Below, piece by piece: positions 2,292 to 9,045 of a stretch of DNA of 10,608 nucleotides. The notes below the pieces were generated by a model, which was not told the origin of the DNA, made no database searches, and saw only the letters and a list, made by a program, of their open reading frames with translations. The stretch's first letter is position 1; each line of letters starts with the position of its first letter. The stretch is from the NCBI GenBank assembly GCA_013140935.1, contig JABFSD010000169.1, forward strand, positions 1 to 10,608. Reading direction: 5' to 3'. The stretch is from Acidobacteriota bacterium. Its GTDB lineage: Bacteria > Acidobacteriota > Blastocatellia > RBC074. The translations under genes were made by a program, and so were the position numbers.

Positions 2292-3626
2292 ATGCATTGG
2301 TCTCAACCATTCACTCAATTCAAACAACCATTCGTTCTGCTTTTTGAACTGGCGATGGTGTTCGCGTGGTCAGTTTCGCTCACGCTTGCGCAAGCTGCGC
2401 CCAAACGCCTTTCGTTGATCGAAGCCATCGAACAAGCGCGTCGCCAATCGCCCTTGCTTGTCGCCGCGAAACAACGCGTAGCCATTGCCGAAGCCGAAAA
2501 GCTGGAAGCCAGCCTGCGACCGAATCCTTCGTTCAATGTGAGCGGCGAAAACTTTCCGCTCGATCCGCCCGAAGGCGGTTTTCAATTCACGCGGACGATT
2601 GATTGGTTTGCGACCTTTACGCATACGATTGAGACGGGCAACAAGCGCGCGTTGCGTACCGCCGTTGCTGAACGCAATCTCGCTTCGGCCAACATCGAAA
2701 TCGCCGCGCTCGAACGCCAGCTCGTTTATGAAGTCAAAGCCGCTTATCAAAAAGTCGCGTTCGAGCGATTGCGGATGGCGCTCTTGCAAGAGAACCTGAC
2801 GAACCTCGAACAACTCGTGCAACTCACTGCCGCGCGCGTCAAAGAGGGTTACGTGGCCGAAGGCGACCTCATCAAAACACGTTTGGAAGCCCAACGCTTC
2901 GGTTATCAGTTGCGCAATGCGGCAATTGAATACGACCAAGCCAAGATCAAGTTGCTGCGTGCGGTTGGAGCAGATTCGTTTGAGAGCGATGCGTTGAGTT
3001 TTGAACTCGCGGATGATCTGGAAGCGCAGCCCGTGAGCTATACCGCGACGACCTTGCAGGAAGCCGCATTGCGCCAGCCGCAAGTGATGCTCGCGCAATC
3101 GCACGTCGAGACCGCGCGCGCCGCGTTACAACTCGAACAAGCTCGCGTGCGTCCCGATTGGCAAGTCACGGCGGGTTACAAACGCAACGGCGTAGACAAC
3201 GCGCTTTACGGTGCGCTTTCGATTCCGCTGCCGCTCTTCAACAAGAATCAAGGCATGCTCGCGCGCGCCGAAGCCTCCATCGCCGTCGCCGAATCTGAGT
3301 TGCGTTACGCGCGCAGCCTCGTGCTGGCTGATCTCACGAGCGCACGCCGTACGCTCACCGCCCGCGAGCAGCAACTCGAAAGCATTCGCGCCAGCTTCCT
3401 GCAACAAGCCGACGAAGTCCGCAACGTCGCGCTCGCCGCTTACCGCGAAGGCGCGAGCGATTTGCTCGTGCTGCTCGACGCGCAACGTACGCGCTCTCAA
3501 TCACAGGAGCTTTATTTTCAGGCTTTATACGATTACCAACTCGCCGTGCATGAACTCGAACGCGCGGCGGGTATTGACCGATTGCCGGTGCGCCCGAATG
3601 CGATTCAAACGTCTACGGAAAAATAA
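2292..3626 (+). CDS. czcC: CzcC-type outer-membrane efflux channel (TolC/OEP family)
   Basis: This is the outer-membrane exit duct of a tripartite metal pump, 444 residues as expected for the family. Residues 1-36 form a signal peptide with probable cleavage after AQA (33-35). There is no lipobox Cys, unlike lipidated members of the family. Two outer-membrane-efflux repeats follow (about 40-225 and 255-428), mostly long amphipathic helices. The second contains the typical stretch PDWQVTAGYKRNG (288-300), then GALSIPLPLFNKNQG (307-321), and ends with the AVHELERAAG helix (418-427), all characteristic of CzcC relatives. The ATG at 2292 has no clear Shine-Dalgarno sequence; a later ATG (residue 22) would cut into the signal peptide. 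The fusion-protein gene begins 3 bases after the stop, which shows the two are co-transcribed and probably translationally coupled. Confidence 0.92.
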   Translation: MHWSQPFTQFKQPFVLLFELAMVFAWSVSLTLAQAAPKRLSLIEAIEQARRQSPLLVAAKQRVAIAEAEKLEASLRPNPSFNVSGENFPLDPPEGGFQFTRTIDWFATFTHTIETGNKRALRTAVAERNLASANIEIAALERQLVYEVKAAYQKVAFERLRMALLQENLTNLEQLVQLTAARVKEGYVAEGDLIKTRLEAQRFGYQLRNAAIEYDQAKIKLLRAVGADSFESDALSFELADDLEAQPVSYTATTLQEAALRQPQVMLAQSHVETARAALQLEQARVRPDWQVTAGYKRNGVDNALYGALSIPLPLFNKNQGMLARAEASIAVAESELRYARSLVLADLTSARRTLTAREQQLESIRASFLQQADEVRNVALAAYREGASDLLVLLDAQRTRSQSQELYFQALYDYQLAVHELERAAGIDRLPVRPNAIQTSTEK

Positions 3627-3629
3627 ACG

Positions 3630-4919
3630 ATGAATACTCGCTTGCAGACAAAAGCATTTCTCCCACGAAGCCACACGAAGAAGACACGAAGATTCTTGCT
3701 GCCTTCCTTCGTGTTCTCTTCGTGTGGCTTCGTGGGCGGACTATTGATTGGGTTAGCGTGCATTGGCTTGAGTGGCTGTGGCACGACGCGCAACGAAACT
3801 GCGACGGCGCAACCCGCTGCGCCTGCGGCAGCCGCTACGCCGAAGCTGGATGAAAACCGCGTCACGCTTTCGGCTGAAGCCATCAAACGCGGACAAATCG
3901 AATCTGCCGAAGTCGCTACACAATCCTTCGCGCAATCTATCGAAGCGCCCGGCAGGCTTGCCTTCAACGAAGACGCCGCCGCGCGCGTGGGTACGATTGT
4001 CAGCGGACGTGTGACAAAAATTTTCGCTACGGTGGGCGACACGGTGAGCAAAGGGCAATCGCTGGTTTACCTGCACAGCCACGAACTCGTAGACGCGCGA
4101 GCCGCCGCCGCGAAAGCCGCTGTGATCGTCGCCGACAAAGAACGCGCGCTGACTTTCGCCAAGTCTGAAGCCGAGCGCACCGAACGCTTGCTCGCCGCCA
4201 AAGCCATCGCGCAACGCGAAGTCGCGCAGGCACAAGCCAACATCAAAGCCGTCGAAGCCGAACTCGCGCACGCGCAAGCTGAGAAAGAACGCGCCGATGA
4301 ATTTCTCGAACACCTTTCGGTTCCGCACGACAGCCACGACGATATCGTTATCAGTTCGCCCATCAGCGGCACGGTCATCAAACGCGATGTATCAGTCGGC
4401 ACGGTCGTGACCGAAGCGAGCGACTTGATTCACATCGCCGATACGTCAACGCTCTGGGCAATCGCCGCCGTGCCCGAACCGCAAGCCGCCACCTTGCGCG
4501 TAGGCCAAAGCGTCGCGCTCAAGCTCGCGGCGTTTCCGAATGCGCGCTTTAGCGGACGCGTCGTTTATCTCGGCAACGAACTCGATCCGGCAACGCGTAC
4601 CGTGCAAGTGCGCTGCCTCGTACAAAACGTCGGACGACGGCTGCGTCCCGAAATGACCGCGACCATTGTGTTGAATGCGGGCGGCGCGCAATCCATCGTC
4701 GCCGTGCCGCGCGACGCCGTGCAGGAACTCGAAGGCGCGCAAGTTGTCTTTCTCACGCGCGATGGCGGCACGTTTGAGAAAGTCGCCGTCGAAACCGGAC
4801 GCGAACAAAACGGACAAATCGAAATCATCAGCGGCTTGTCATCGGGCCAGCGCGTCGTCACGCGCGGCGCGTTTTTCATCAAGACGGAATTTCAAAAAGC
4901 CGCATTGTCAGATGAATAG
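3630..4919 (+). CDS. czcB: CzcB/CusB-type periplasmic membrane-fusion lipoprotein of metal efflux RND system
   Basis: This 429-residue protein is the periplasmic adaptor joining pump and channel. After a basic N-terminus and hydrophobic stretch (38-47), LSGC (47-50) is a lipobox, so C50 is probably lipidated. An Ala/Pro-rich linker runs to about 75. The first lipoyl half is around 116-150 (VSGRVTKIFATVGDTVSKGQ), followed by an alpha-helical hairpin (about 155-228), the second lipoyl half (240-260, SSPISGTVIKRDVSVG), a beta-barrel (270-348) and a membrane-proximal domain (350-425). A short His/Asp cluster, HDSHDD at 233-238, lies between hairpin and lipoyl half; a metal-binding role is only a guess. 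Oddly, residues 11-36 are encoded by a long palindrome (separate entry), which makes the pre-lipobox region 49 residues, about twice the usual length. The only Shine-Dalgarno candidate is a weak GGAA at 3617-3620. The pump gene is not next, as expected, but two genes later. Confidence 0.92.
   Translation: MNTRLQTKAFLPRSHTKKTRRFLLPSFVFSSCGFVGGLLIGLACIGLSGCGTTRNETATAQPAAPAAAATPKLDENRVTLSAEAIKRGQIESAEVATQSFAQSIEAPGRLAFNEDAAARVGTIVSGRVTKIFATVGDTVSKGQSLVYLHSHELVDARAAAAKAAVIVADKERALTFAKSEAERTERLLAAKAIAQREVAQAQANIKAVEAELAHAQAEKERADEFLEHLSVPHDSHDDIVISSPISGTVIKRDVSVGTVVTEASDLIHIADTSTLWAIAAVPEPQAATLRVGQSVALKLAAFPNARFSGRVVYLGNELDPATRTVQVRCLVQNVGRRLRPEMTATIVLNAGGAQSIVAVPRDAVQELEGAQVVFLTRDGGTFEKVAVETGREQNGQIEIISGLSSGQRVVTRGAFFIKTEFQKAALSDE
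3662..3736. repeat. 75-bp near-perfect palindromic element inside the czcB signal-peptide region
   Basis: The 30-base arms 3662-3691 and 3707-3736 pair at 28 of 30 positions around a 15-base loop (3692-3706). The two mismatches are adjacent, an AG/GA swap. Each arm carries three copies of an ACGAAG core about 10-11 bases apart (CACGAAG at 3664, 3674 and 3685). CACGAAG-type inverted repeats are usually intergenic in environmental genomes, from memory. Here the element lies entirely within the reading frame and is a multiple of three (25 codons). Transcribed, it would form a very stable hairpin starting about 30 bases after the czcB start codon. No target-site duplication is evident at its ends. 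Confidence 0.92.
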
Positions 4920-4959: not shown

Positions 4960-4997
4960 CGAATTCAGGGAAGGTTGAGTTCAGCACCGTGAAAGAA

Positions 4998-5003
4998 AAG
5001 GAG
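4998..5003 (+). promoter_or_regulatory. Strong Shine-Dalgarno site that sets the cassette start at 5010
   Basis: AAGGAG lies 6 bases before the ATG at 5010, an ideal arrangement. An upstream in-frame GTG at 4989 would extend the protein by seven residues but has no ribosome binding site and would place AAGGAG inside the gene, so 5010 is preferred. Confidence 0.8.
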
Positions 5004-5009
5004 CTAAAG

Positions 5010-5438
5010 ATGAATCAAGCAGTACCGACATTAAGTGCTTCAACAGCGGCAAGAGGCGTAACAGTTAAGCCTTGTTCGTGGCGCACTGAAGCTCTCAACA
5101 AAATCGTTGAGCTCGCTGCACTGCCGGAAAACTGGGATGGTTACGGCAGTCGTCGCATTCAGTCTGCCGCTCAACACCAAACCACCAATCTCATCGAAAA
5201 GTTGAGTCAAACCGCTTTGCCTGCGCCGCAGATTTTTCCCGTACCGGGCGGCGGGCTTCAGTTGGAATGGCAAACCGAACAAAGCGGGGCCGAATTGGAA
5301 ATTCTGCCTGACGGCTCGATGCAGTATTTGATCGAAGATGCCTCGCATGAGATGCGTGAAGGCACAGCTTCAGAGCTTGAAGTAACGCGCCTCGTTCGTT
5401 GGCTCGAAGCACAGGAAACAAGTATCGCTACGTTTTGA
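5010..5438 (+). CDS. Uncharacterised conserved protein with NWDGYG motif (cassette gene 1)
   Basis: This 142-residue soluble protein has no signal peptide or membrane segment. A helical N-terminal part ends in LPENWDGYGSRRI (39-50), followed by a helix and then a beta-rich segment with VPGGGLQLEW (78-87) and ELEILPDGSMQYLIE (95-109), closing with a C-terminal helix (about 120-135). I recognise the combination of a WDGYG motif, a GG(L/I/V)QLEW strand and an E(L/V)EI..DG strand from many unnamed bacterial proteins, but I know no function or family name. It is followed after 6 bases by a second small gene, so the two are probably co-translated. The cassette sits between czcB and czcA, with its own promoter candidate. 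The size and two-gene layout resemble a toxin-antitoxin pair, but no recognised toxin or DNA-binding fold is visible, so that is only one option. Confidence 0.85.
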   Translation: MNQAVPTLSASTAARGVTVKPCSWRTEALNKIVELAALPENWDGYGSRRIQSAAQHQTTNLIEKLSQTALPAPQIFPVPGGGLQLEWQTEQSGAELEILPDGSMQYLIEDASHEMREGTASELEVTRLVRWLEAQETSIATF

Positions 5439-5444
5439 AATTGC

Positions 5445-5849
5445 ATGCCTCAGCGAATTGACGACCCTTCGATTGATAACGACGACTGGCTTTGGCGGCG
5501 CATCCGCAATCGCCCGCAATGGTACGCGCAAAATCCTGACGGCACTTATCGCCTCAGTTCAGTGGCTTTTCTTGACAGTTACACCAACGAAGTTTCGGTT
5601 GATCTGGCAAAACTGACGACGCAGGAATTTGCGTTGCGCTCTGATGCGGACGATGGACTGGCGCAAATCAACGCGGGCTTGCCGCGTTCCTTGCAACACG
5701 TCGTAACGGCTGACCCTGAGCCTGACAATCCTGCGCACGCCTTGATTTGTCCGCCATCAACGCTGTCGCAAGGTCAGCGCAAAAGCAGCGCGCGTCTGAT
5801 GGCACAAGCGGCAGAATGGTTAGTGTTGCCGCAATCTTTACGCAGTTGA
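5445..5849 (+). CDS. Uncharacterised conserved protein with LWRR and DPxPDNPAHA motifs (cassette gene 2)
   Basis: This 134-residue, probably cytoplasmic protein has no signal peptide. Visible landmarks are LWRRI (16-20), RLSSVAFLD (36-44), SVDLAKLT (51-58), DPEPDNPAHALI (90-101) and a closing AEWLVLP (123-129). Proteins with this order of motifs (R.SS.AF.D, then a DP.P.NPAHA box with an invariant-looking His) recur in environmental bacteria, from memory, without an assigned function. The conserved Arg, Asp, Asn and His could form an active site, but this is speculation. No Shine-Dalgarno sequence precedes the ATG. It starts 6 bases after the stop of cassette gene 1, so translation probably depends on re-initiation, which argues for fixed co-expression. 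The pump gene czcA starts 17 bases downstream. Confidence 0.82.
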   Translation: MPQRIDDPSIDNDDWLWRRIRNRPQWYAQNPDGTYRLSSVAFLDSYTNEVSVDLAKLTTQEFALRSDADDGLAQINAGLPRSLQHVVTADPEPDNPAHALICPPSTLSQGQRKSSARLMAQAAEWLVLPQSLRS

Positions 5850-5866: not shown

Positions 5867-8800
5867 ATGCTGAATTCGATAATTGAGTTTTCCTTACAAC
5901 AACGTTTTCTCGTCATCGCGCTAACGCTCTTGCTCGCAGGCGCGGGCTTGTTCGCGTTGTCGAGTCTGCCGATTGATTCTTATCCAGACCTCACCAACAA
6001 CCAGGTCAACATCTTCACCGAAGCGCCTGGCACGGCGGCGACCGAAGTCGAACAGCTCATCACTTATCCGATTGAAAGCGCGATGCTCGGTTTGCGGCGC
6101 ACCGAAGAAGTGCGTTCGATTTCCAAGTTCGGCATCTCGGTCGTGACCATCGTCTTTGAAGACGGCGTAGACAGTTATTTCGCGCGCCAACTCGTCAACG
6201 AACGTTTGCAGGAAGCGCGCGGCCGTTTGCCACAAGAGGTTGATCCGGTGTTGGGGCCGTTGGCGACGCCGTTTGGCGAGATCAGCCATTATGTGTTGGA
6301 AGGGAAAGGCTACGACGCGATGCAATTGCGCAGCTTGCAGGACTGGGTCGTCAAGCCGCAGTTGCGCACCATCCCCGGTGTCAACGATGTGAGCGGCTGG
6401 GGCGGATTCATCAGGCAATATCAAGTCATCGCCAATCCCGAACGTTTGCTCGCTTATCAACTCACCTTGCAAGACGTTTATGAAGCCCTTGCCAGCAGCA
6501 ATCAAAACTTCGGCGGCAGCTATCTCGAACGCGGCGCAGAAGGCTTCACCGTCTTAGGGCAAGGCCGATTCAATGCCGCCAACGCCGAAAGCGACATCGG
6601 CAGCGTCGTCGTGAAAGCGCGTGCCGGTACGCCCGTGCTGATCCGCGACGTAGCCGAAATCAAAATCGGTGCGGCTATGCGACAAGGTTCGGTGAGCAAA
6701 GACGGGCAAGGCGAAGTCGTCTCAGGCATGGTCATTATGAGCAAAGGCGAAAGCTCGAAAGACACGATTGAGAAAGTGCATGAACGCTATCGCCAAATCG
6801 AAAAGTCGCTGCCAGCGGGCGTGAAGATTACGCCGTTTTATGAACAGACCGACCTTATCAATCGCACGACGAAAACGCTGGCGACGAATTTAATCGAAGG
6901 CGGCTTGCTCGTGATCGTCGTGCTGTTTCTGTTTTTGTTTAACGTGCGGGCTTCGTTGATCGTGGCGTCGGTGATTCCGCTTTCGATGTTGATTGCGTTC
7001 ATCGGCATGAAGGCGTTCGGTTTGACGGCCAACCTAATGAGCCTCGGTGCGCTCGATTTCGGATTGATCGTAGACGGCGCAGTCGTGATGATCGAAGGCT
7101 TTGTCACCGCGCTCGGCGTTCAATCGGTCGCGCATGATCGCAAAGAACGTCTGCGGCTTTCCGCGCTCGACATCGCGCGTCCGATTGTGTTCGGCATCGT
7201 CATCATCATCGCCGTATACCTGCCGCTCTTTGCCTTGCAAGGTTTGGAATCGCGCATGTTTCGTCCGATGGCGTTGACCGTGTGTTGCGCGTTGGTGGGT
7301 TCGTTGTTGCTGACGCTGACGTTCGTGCCGGCGATGGGTTCGTTGTTGCTCAAACCGCACGGCGAAGGCGTACACGAACGATTCATGCAAGGTTTGCAAA
7401 ACGCCTATCGTCGCGGCCTCGAACGCGCAGCCAGGATGCGTTGGCTGACGGTGGCGACTGCGTTGTTGTTGGTCGTTGGCGCATTCGCTGTGCTGGCACG
7501 GCTCGGCACTGAATTCATGCCCAAGCTCGATGAAGGCCAGTTCCTCATCGAGACGCGCCGCCTGCCTTCGGTGTCGCTCACGCAAGCGACTGAGATTTCA
7601 GGCATGGTCGAAAAGGCTTTGCTCGAATTTCCCGAAGTCACGAGCGTCATCACTAAACTCGGTCGGCCAGACATTGCCACTGACACGATGGGCGTTTATC
7701 AAGGCGACGTTTACGTCAAACTCAAACCCATCGAGCAATGGCGCAGCGCGACCACGCGCGAAGGCTTGATCGAAGCGTTTGATAAGAAGCTGCAAAACGT
7801 GCCGGGCGTCGGATACAACTTCACGCAACCGCTCGAAATGCGTATGGACGAAGTCATTTCGGGCGTGCGTGCCGACGTAGCCGTAAAACTTTTCGGCGAC
7901 GACACCGCAGTGTTGGAACGCGAAGGCGAACGCATCGCGCGCGTTTTGCAACGCGTCGCGGGCGCGGCTGACGTGCAAGTCGAAGCCCTCAGCGGCGCGG
8001 GCGAGTTGCAAATTCAAATCAATCGCGCGGCGCTCGCGCGTTACGGTTTGCACACCGACGACGTAGCCCGCACGGTCGAGATGGCTTTGGGCGGCGCAGT
8101 GGCGACCGAGTTGATTGACGAACGCAAACGCACAGACATCGTTGTGCGTTTGCCTGAAAGCTATCGCGCCAATGACGCCGCGCTGGGTTCGATCTTGTTG
8201 CCTGCGCCCAACGGCGAGCGCGTCACGCTCGCTCAACTCGCTTCGATCAAAACCGCGCTCGGCCCCGAAGTCGTCAACCGCGAAAACGCTCAACGCCGCA
8301 TCGTGATTCAATCAAATGTGCGCGGACGCGACATCGGCAGCTTCGTCGCCGACGCGCAAGCCGCGTTTGATCGCGAAGTTAAATTGCCGACGGGTTATTT
8401 CGTGACGTGGGGCGGCGAGTTCGAGAATCAGCAACGCGCGATGAAACGCCTTTACCTCGTCGTACCGCTCGCGCTGTTTTTGATTTTCATGTTGTTGTTC
8501 GCTTCGTTCGGCACGCTGCGCCATGCGCTCTTAATTATTCTCAACGTACCTTTCGCGCTCGTCGGTGGCGTCGCCGCGTTGTGGTTGCGCGGCTTGCCCT
8601 TGAGCCTTTCCGCCGCCATCGGTTTCATCGCGCTCTTTGGCGTCGCCGTTCTCAACGGCGTAGTGATGGTGAGTTACATCAACCGCTTGCGCGACGATGG
8701 ATTGTCTTTATCAGAAGCCGTTTTGACCGGAGCCGCCGGGCGCTTGCGTCCCGTGTTGATGACGGCGCTCGTGGCAAGCTTGGGATTCATTCCGATGGCC

Positions 8801-8965
8801 TTATCCAGTGCGCCCGGCGCAGAAGTGCAACGACCTTTGGCGACGGTCGTGATCGGCGGATTGATTACCGCGACCTTGCTGACGATGTTCGTGTTGCCGT
8901 TGTTGTATGAATGGATTGAGCGGTTTCAGCAACGCACTGTGGCCGTGAGTGATAGCGAAGCATAG
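5867..8965 (+). CDS. czcA: CzcA-type heavy-metal efflux RND pump (HME family)
   Basis: This is the inner-membrane proton/metal antiporter of the tripartite system, apparently complete at 1032 residues. It shows the RND plan: TM1 (about 13-33), a large periplasmic domain (34-340), TM2-6 (about 343-495), TM7 (about 525-545), a second periplasmic domain (546-858) and TM8-12 (863-1015). TM4 contains ALDFGLIVDGAVVMIEG, giving D397, D403 and E410, which correspond in spacing to D402, D408 and E415 of Cupriavidus CzcA. This suggests divalent ions (Zn, Co, Cd or Ni) rather than Cu/Ag; the exact metal is undetermined. After E410, the Asn usual in this family is Gly. QPLEMRMDEVISGVRADVAVKLFGDD (654-679, shown here only by its ends QPLEMR and KLFGDD) is also typical. 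The ATG at 5867 lacks a clear Shine-Dalgarno sequence. The stop codon TAG lies at the start of a tandem repeat. Confidence 0.95.
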   Translation: MLNSIIEFSLQQRFLVIALTLLLAGAGLFALSSLPIDSYPDLTNNQVNIFTEAPGTAATEVEQLITYPIESAMLGLRRTEEVRSISKFGISVVTIVFEDGVDSYFARQLVNERLQEARGRLPQEVDPVLGPLATPFGEISHYVLEGKGYDAMQLRSLQDWVVKPQLRTIPGVNDVSGWGGFIRQYQVIANPERLLAYQLTLQDVYEALASSNQNFGGSYLERGAEGFTVLGQGRFNAANAESDIGSVVVKARAGTPVLIRDVAEIKIGAAMRQGSVSKDGQGEVVSGMVIMSKGESSKDTIEKVHERYRQIEKSLPAGVKITPFYEQTDLINRTTKTLATNLIEGGLLVIVVLFLFLFNVRASLIVASVIPLSMLIAFIGMKAFGLTANLMSLGALDFGLIVDGAVVMIEGFVTALGVQSVAHDRKERLRLSALDIARPIVFGIVIIIAVYLPLFALQGLESRMFRPMALTVCCALVGSLLLTLTFVPAMGSLLLKPHGEGVHERFMQGLQNAYRRGLERAARMRWLTVATALLLVVGAFAVLARLGTEFMPKLDEGQFLIETRRLPSVSLTQATEISGMVEKALLEFPEVTSVITKLGRPDIATDTMGVYQGDVYVKLKPIEQWRSATTREGLIEAFDKKLQNVPGVGYNFTQPLEMRMDEVISGVRADVAVKLFGDDTAVLEREGERIARVLQRVAGAADVQVEALSGAGELQIQINRAALARYGLHTDDVARTVEMALGGAVATELIDERKRTDIVVRLPESYRANDAALGSILLPAPNGERVTLAQLASIKTALGPEVVNRENAQRRIVIQSNVRGRDIGSFVADAQAAFDREVKLPTGYFVTWGGEFENQQRAMKRLYLVVPLALFLIFMLLFASFGTLRHALLIILNVPFALVGGVAALWLRGLPLSLSAAIGFIALFGVAVLNGVVMVSYINRLRDDGLSLSEAVLTGAAGRLRPVLMTALVASLGFIPMALSSAPGAEVQRPLATVVIGGLITATLLTMFVLPLLYEWIERFQQRTVAVSDSEA

Positions 8966-9045
8966 GAGTTATGTGAGTTCTAGGAGTTATAGGAATGCCT
9001 GCCAATCAAGTGTTCCCCATAACTCTCATCGCTCCCATAACTCCC
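8964..9045. repeat. Nonameric (9-bp) repeat arranged as an imperfect inverted repeat
   Basis: Plus-strand units of 9 bp begin at 8964, 8973 and 8982 with consensus RGGAGTTAT; the first and third are identical (AGGAGTTAT) and the second is degenerate, with a decayed fourth at 8991. Complementary units lie at 9019-9027, 9028-9036 and 9037-9045 (ATAACTCTC, ATCGCTCCC, ATAACTCCC). The arms 8965-8992 and 9018-9044 pair at about three quarters of positions around a spacer of roughly 25 bases. The last two bases of the czcA stop codon belong to the first unit. It fills most of the gap between czcA and sua5. Confidence 0.85.

Follow-up and report, generated by a model that had tools for sequence, protein, structure and literature searches.

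A dispersed palindromic repeat as a probable part of a lipoprotein signal peptide in an acidobacterial genome

How does a long palindrome come to lie within the first codons of a metal-efflux gene, and why would it survive there? The question is raised by a window of 10,608 nucleotides, the whole stretch of DNA analysed, from contig JABFSD010000169.1 of an Acidobacteriota genome. According to the ORF list and Pfam, the window carries a gene for a membrane-fusion (adaptor) lipoprotein of the CzcB/CusB type (czcB; 3630-4919, + strand, 429 aa, HlyD_D23). This gene sits between an outer-membrane efflux protein gene (OEP; 2292-3626, + strand, stop codon TAA at 3624-3626) and, two small ORFs later, a czcA-type RND pump gene (ACR_tran; 5867-8965, + strand). 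The two small ORFs (4989-5438 and 5445-5849) have no Pfam match.

A palindrome within the leader of czcB

An inverted-repeat search, the predicted fold and the copies elsewhere in the genome define a palindromic repeat, belonging to no particular strand, at 3662-3736; it is a member of what is here called family A (CACGAAG-type). Its 30-nt arms (3662-3691 and 3707-3736), complementary at 28 of 30 positions (93%), flank a 15-nt loop (3692-3706, + strand). The predicted fold has an energy of -55.5 kcal/mol (z -9.8), equalled by 0 of 200 shuffles, and an Rfam scan of the palindrome returned microRNA models, all sub-threshold, as expected of a good hairpin. The element is 75 nt long, lies wholly within the ORF and leaves its frame open. 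A preliminary description of this DNA had reported a 75-bp palindrome of exactly these arms and pairing, 25 codons long and inside czcB, and both the inverted-repeat search and the ORF list bear it out; deletion of 3662-3736 closes the frame to give MNTRLQTKAFLGLLIGLACIGLSGC, as it had also claimed.

Composition and direct reading set the two arms apart. The left arm (3662-3691, + strand) lacks T and in the frame of the gene encodes PRSHTKKTR(R), with a charge of +4, including the basic stretch SHTKKTRR pointed out earlier. The right arm (3707-3736, + strand) lacks A and encodes FVFSSCGFV, in which the extra cysteine of the preliminary description is found at residue 32. A basic n-region, a hydrophobic core and a lipobox (L-S-G-C, 3768-3779, + strand) can all be read in the leader, which is long: the lipobox cysteine is residue 50, in agreement with the 49 preceding residues first counted.

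The 12 nt to the left of the palindrome (3650-3661, + strand; AAAAGCATTTCT) are common to other family A copies. In an alignment of 27 family A ends, which includes the window's copy and two rows that are inner anchors, they correspond to the commonest base at every position, some positions being weakly conserved, and the consensus tends to AAAA-N5-TNCTC. Because this flank matches the ends of other copies, the insert probably exceeds 75 nt, with a unit that would start before 3662 and for which 75 nt is a minimum.

The repeat family and its occurrence in signal peptides

The preliminary description had proposed looking for further copies of the palindrome in the genome (G000; 6.1 Mb in 1235 contigs, 74% complete). 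Searching the genome against itself for the element yielded 80 matches, which collapse to 34 places (three marginal matches of 14-17 nt left out). At E <= 0.001 the family is present in 8 of 58 genomes, the window's own included (7 of 57 relatives); seven of the eight belong to one bacterial family and the eighth (G031) has a single weak match. Since it is one of 34 dispersed copies of a family also present in relatives, the element in czcB appears to be an inserted dispersed repeat, not a chance hairpin, and the dispersal points to mobility of the family. Single hairpins of about 70-115 bp account for many copies; the remainder are compound and can reach 180 bp or more, in some cases with an inner ACAGGATT-type repeat. 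The exact patterns of two other repeats, CACAGAG and CGCAAAG, have 2 and 1 matches, respectively, in this genome, and a 19-nt piece of the arm had no exact match in the viral contigs searched.

Family A copies are found close to stop codons: 21 of 33 (the 34 places minus one left out of the stop-codon script) begin -3 to 33 nt past one. At 13 places co-directional genes lie within 120 nt on both sides, the gene calls around the copies coming from a simple dicodon script. Most copies inspected are untranslated junction sequence. Three of the 34 places, all among the 21 stop-adjoining copies, are in signal peptides (czcB, a sulfatase and a PQQ-dehydrogenase), and at least these three are predicted to be coding. 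No gene-interior copy was found among the 34 places of this genome apart from L027, which is covered by an opposite-strand ORF call that was itself taken as spurious. Elsewhere in the window, an imperfect inverted repeat (8965-9044; 29-nt arms, 76%) begins at the RND pump gene's own stop codon, in keeping with placement just after a stop; the gene beyond it is, we assume, Sua5/YciO-like.

The czcB site was compared at the protein level among at least 117 homologues listed; two remote homologues from a contig scan of the genome for czcB were left out. Those homologues for which a taxonomic name is given come from Blastocatellia/Acidobacteria. In a search with residues 9-50, only the window's own protein among 20 candidates carries the peptide. 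The close orthologues with an N-terminus differ at the site. P0002-P0004 (85-90% by BLASTP) have a segment RVSSPTVREG...GRATDTLRA, unrelated to family A, and P0098 (87%, partial) is without its first part. P0005 (76%) has MDIHPRSHTKKTRRAVGVSGLFFLCFVVSAC, the peptide of one arm (PRSHTKKTRR only) of the window's family in the same frame, and P0006 (79%) has a 16-residue leader from which the insert is absent. The residues before the lipobox cysteine number 62-63 in P0002-P0004, 49 in the window, 30 in P0005 and 16 in P0006. The full 25-codon segment is present in none of the close orthologues with an N-terminus; P0005 has 10 of its residues. Conservation of the 25 codons in all close orthologues, named at the outset as evidence against insertion, is not what P0002-P0006 display.

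The alternative segments themselves resemble palindromes. Used as a protein query, the P0004 segment hits G000 (contigs C107, C205 and C988) and G001 at places where both strands match, and two of the G001 copies form hairpins whose arms pair at 28/29 and 38/38 positions; the segment thus belongs to a second palindrome family. In P0011 and P0008 (61%) the sequences TKGQRDKELVPFVPLPLCPFAL and TRGQRDKELDSFVSLFLCPFVL are similar to the ACAAAGG palindrome of G003.

Seven further signal-peptide cases were found in DNA from this genome and five relatives and involve about five repeat types; the eight loci, window included, come from a guided search and not from a blind screen, and the cleavage sites were assigned by reading. 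The sulfatase of this genome reads MKKMK, the repeat (26/27 arm pairs) and then YVLLFLLAALSFAQ; its nearest homologues, at most 45% identical, have no repeat at the matching place. The PQQ-dehydrogenase of this genome reads MIFRPRSHTKKTRRNWTG...SLIPSILTILSILSNSSCLIANA, with QVTYERI following the cleavage site, and its inner arms pair at 32/34 positions. A PQQ-dehydrogenase of G007 has a CACAGAG-type palindrome (28/32) after MKKVF, of which the G006 orthologue apparently has one arm; a G001 orthologue and a G000 paralogue are without insert. In G003 a 36/36 palindrome lies directly past the first codons (MEQ...) of a TPR protein gene, a case reached through a noisy peptide search, and in G001 an FG-GAP protein gene starts with a TTG overlapping the stop upstream, followed by 33/33 arms. 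In G006 and G008, distant czcB-type adaptors carry decayed CGCAAAG-type hairpins, identified without shuffle control. The frame is open through the element in 8/8 loci, and in 7/8 the start codon overlaps the upstream stop or lies at most 5 nt from it (-4 to +5). The TPR gene has its nearest identified stop 24 nt away, and this stop belongs to a short frame (132 aa) that may not be the real neighbour. Taken together, the sequences indicate that a similar outcome arose several times, from different palindromes, in predicted exported proteins of one bacterial family.

Such cases appear to be rare and the repeats to avoid genes, as judged from a survey of 1.6 Mb of G001, G006, G007 and G008, with contigs picked for length and some for earlier matches on them. 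Of 170 hairpins, 145 are intergenic, 6 edge and 19 genic in sequence of which 85-87% is called coding. The sole signal-peptide case is the G007 locus, on a contig fetched because it was already known; there is none among the other 169. Palindromes with a T-poor first arm are genic in 2 and intergenic in 46 cases, against 5 and 5 for those with an A-poor first arm (Fisher p = 0.001, with 3 edge palindromes left out and a threshold chosen post hoc). One signal-peptide case was met in the 21 G001 places inspected out of 40 listed (from 89 candidates), and one in 11 distinct places of the ACAAAGG repeat in G003. Other long open frames through repeat copies (G001, G003, G006-G010) were not counted: on reading they seemed to be non-coding or antisense, or to lie upstream of an evident start.

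Several other features of these relatives were recorded. In the 1.6 Mb, lopsided palindromes have a T-poor 5' arm in 51 cases and an A-poor one in 10. The first 200 kb each of G001 contigs C2 and C22 hold 83 hairpins in 400 kb, by eye of at least 10 families, against 21-43 per 400 kb in three relatives. Two RND pump genes (G008:C24:318178 and G006:C10:14107) contain in-frame palindromes with the core CCGCCTT(C/T)AGGCGG, whose peptides (PPSGG...PPEGG/PPKGG) are apparently at one loop in two species. Further in-frame palindromes occur at G006:C10:107240, G006:C10:119124 and G001:C2:43247, in genes that we take to encode, respectively, a ThiL-like protein, a permease-ATPase-like protein and a Ser/Thr kinase (near the activation loop). 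The gene-interior palindromes (RND loop, ThiL, kinase) are sequences other than family A.

Arm composition, survival and alternative readings

The base composition of the arms (left A13 C10 G7 T0; right A0 C7 G10 T13) bears directly on survival in a coding frame. All stop codons require both T and A, so neither arm can contain one in any frame. Codons without T in second position cannot encode F, L, I, M or V, and those without A in second position cannot encode K, N, Q, H, E, D or Y. Hydropathy in the three frames is -2.6, -2.6 and -2.9 for the left arm and +1.2, +1.9 and +0.5 for the right. Depending on the frame, the left arm carries a net charge of -1, +4 or +1, and its basic character is therefore a property of the frame used in czcB and not of all frames. 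When T-free arms are shuffled, 81% of the frames have a right-minus-left difference in hydropathy of 3 or more; for random palindromes the share is 1.3% of frames, of which 48% are open. The orientation of the insert is irrelevant because a palindrome is its own reverse complement. The T-free rule applies strictly to the repeats of czcB, the sulfatase and the FG-GAP protein and to the G006 core, and nearly so to the TPR repeat (2 T of 36); it fails for the arms of G007 (3 T of 32) and the compound PQQ arms of G000 (12 T); since the G007, compound PQQ and TPR arms contain T, the argument from the genetic code does not reach every case.

The reading that we consider probable is that a dispersed, strand-symmetric palindromic repeat has a copy in frame at 3662-3736, and that this copy forms part of the czcB signal peptide. 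Such repeats would settle shortly past stop codons and become coding where the next gene starts at that stop. As the ATG of czcB (3630-3632, + strand; direct reading and stop-spacing analysis) lies 3 nt past the OEP stop, the repeat would fall in the first codons and contribute to the lipoprotein signal peptide. Its survival there could follow from a left arm without T and a right arm without A: the arms are free of stops, and the peptide that they supply would run from hydrophilic (basic in this frame) to hydrophobic, just as a signal peptide does from its n-region to its h-region. The extended region would presumably be removed with the signal peptide. The earlier proposal that the element is tolerated because it is cleaved off is, we think, incomplete, since the element encodes a basic and a hydrophobic stretch and elsewhere such repeats form much of the signal peptide. 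Palindromes probably recur in export signals because they encode a charged and then a hydrophobic stretch. A broader proposal, to which we would give somewhat less than an even chance, is that a T-free 5' arm turns a palindrome into a ready-made signal-peptide module, and that stop-adjoining repeats, having stop-free hydrophilic and hydrophobic arms whatever the frame or strand, may be a code-dictated, recurrent source of new or replaced signal peptides.

A point against the main reading is that a stem of 30 bp lying 32 nt past the start codon should hinder translation.

The repeat could instead be kept as an RNA hairpin that tunes operon expression, through REP-like ribosome stalling or as an RNase site, its coding in czcB being a side effect. 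We regard this as possible, on balance doubtful, and compatible with a role in the signal peptide. The stem is very stable, stop codons lie within 35 nt of the beginning of 21 of the 33 copies, and a share of Escherichia coli REPs is likewise near stops (446 of 4,072 within 15 nt; PMC12306157). However, the hairpin is not conserved at the site, since orthologues carry the peptide of another palindrome, one arm or nothing, and the signal-peptide polarity would be left unexplained.

It is unlikely that translation begins within or just past the element, at the TTG at 3696-3698 (+ strand), at one of the two in-frame GTGs of the right arm (residues 28 and 35) or beyond, in which case the left arm would be 5' leader RNA and the right arm alone, or neither, would be translated. 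The public protein prediction P0001 (407 aa), recovered in the homologue search, does start at this TTG, and the untranslated state of most family copies inspected agrees with such a start. Against this, the ATG at 3630 is at a distance from the upstream stop that is usual for coupled genes, and any start from TTG 3696 onward gives a leader without a basic residue before the cysteine. The stretch between element and lipobox has neither ATG nor GTG, and a start at either of its two TTGs would leave no more than 11 residues before the cysteine, none of them basic. Moreover, the PQQ-dehydrogenase genes of G000 and G007 have an ATG overlapping the upstream stop, and between the repeat and the mature part they contain no start codon.

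A misjoin of a repeat copy into czcB during assembly is very improbable: repeats do cause misjoins and this assembly is fragmented and incomplete, but both flanks match czcB orthologues (the MNT start as in P0002, the hydrophobic core and the lipobox) and like insertions occur in independent genomes. That ribosomes bypass the hairpin, leaving the element in the mRNA and out of the protein, as mentioned for palindromic elements of yeast mitochondria (PMC6649704), is hardly credible given a frame open at all eight loci, which bypass would not require.

Implications and comparison with known palindromic repeats

The element thus appears to be a genuine in-frame repeat insertion that comes with a testable general rule. 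If this is correct, protein-coding palindromes reach beyond Rickettsia to an acidobacterial lineage, one signal peptide carries different repeat-derived segments in close relatives, and there would be a simple reason in the genetic code for where such repeats survive. The origin and turnover of signal peptides would become testable through relatives and secretion reporters, and caution would be in order where gene callers may misplace starts in such genes. Should the ready-made modules also be real, they would represent a bacterial route to signal-peptide birth and turnover set by the genetic code. The open-access literature searched, outside which most subscription journals lie, yielded no report of different palindromes at one signal peptide and no statement of the T-free-arm argument. 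Already in print are palindromes that code for protein in Rickettsia and, in Yersinia, a signal peptide formed in part by a MITE.

The E. coli REPs resemble family A as extragenic palindromes, some of them beside stop codons, and differ in size and in that some copies here are predicted to be coding. A crude motif screen for a RAYT partner gave 0 matches among the predicted proteins of the 1.6 Mb from four relatives. Coding palindromes of nematomorph mitochondria are likewise inverted repeats within protein genes (PMC6649704), but they are mitochondrial, perfect and not dispersed bacterial families.

The Rickettsia palindromic elements (RPE) are dispersed palindromes of about 105-146 bp; they fall into several families, and some of them lie in frame within conserved protein genes (PMC2229807, PMC10969869). 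The window's element shares with them a long stem-loop, and family A shares dispersal over many places and in-frame copies, predicted to be coding, in conserved protein genes (czcB, sulfatase, PQQ-dehydrogenase); here too there are several families. There are also differences: the lineage is another, the repeats are shorter, and in the window's family the arms are T-free or A-free and the putative coding copies so far lie in signal peptides at gene junctions.

The palindrome also has some features of a MITE, namely terminal inverted repeats, small size and no internal transposase gene, for which it is too short. A precedent in this respect is YPO1552 of Yersinia, whose signal peptide is partly made by the YPAL/RU-2 MITE (PMC2759123). 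That case concerns one putative exported protein, whereas here several repeat types and several conserved genes are involved, and different palindrome-derived segments appear to occupy one site in close relatives.
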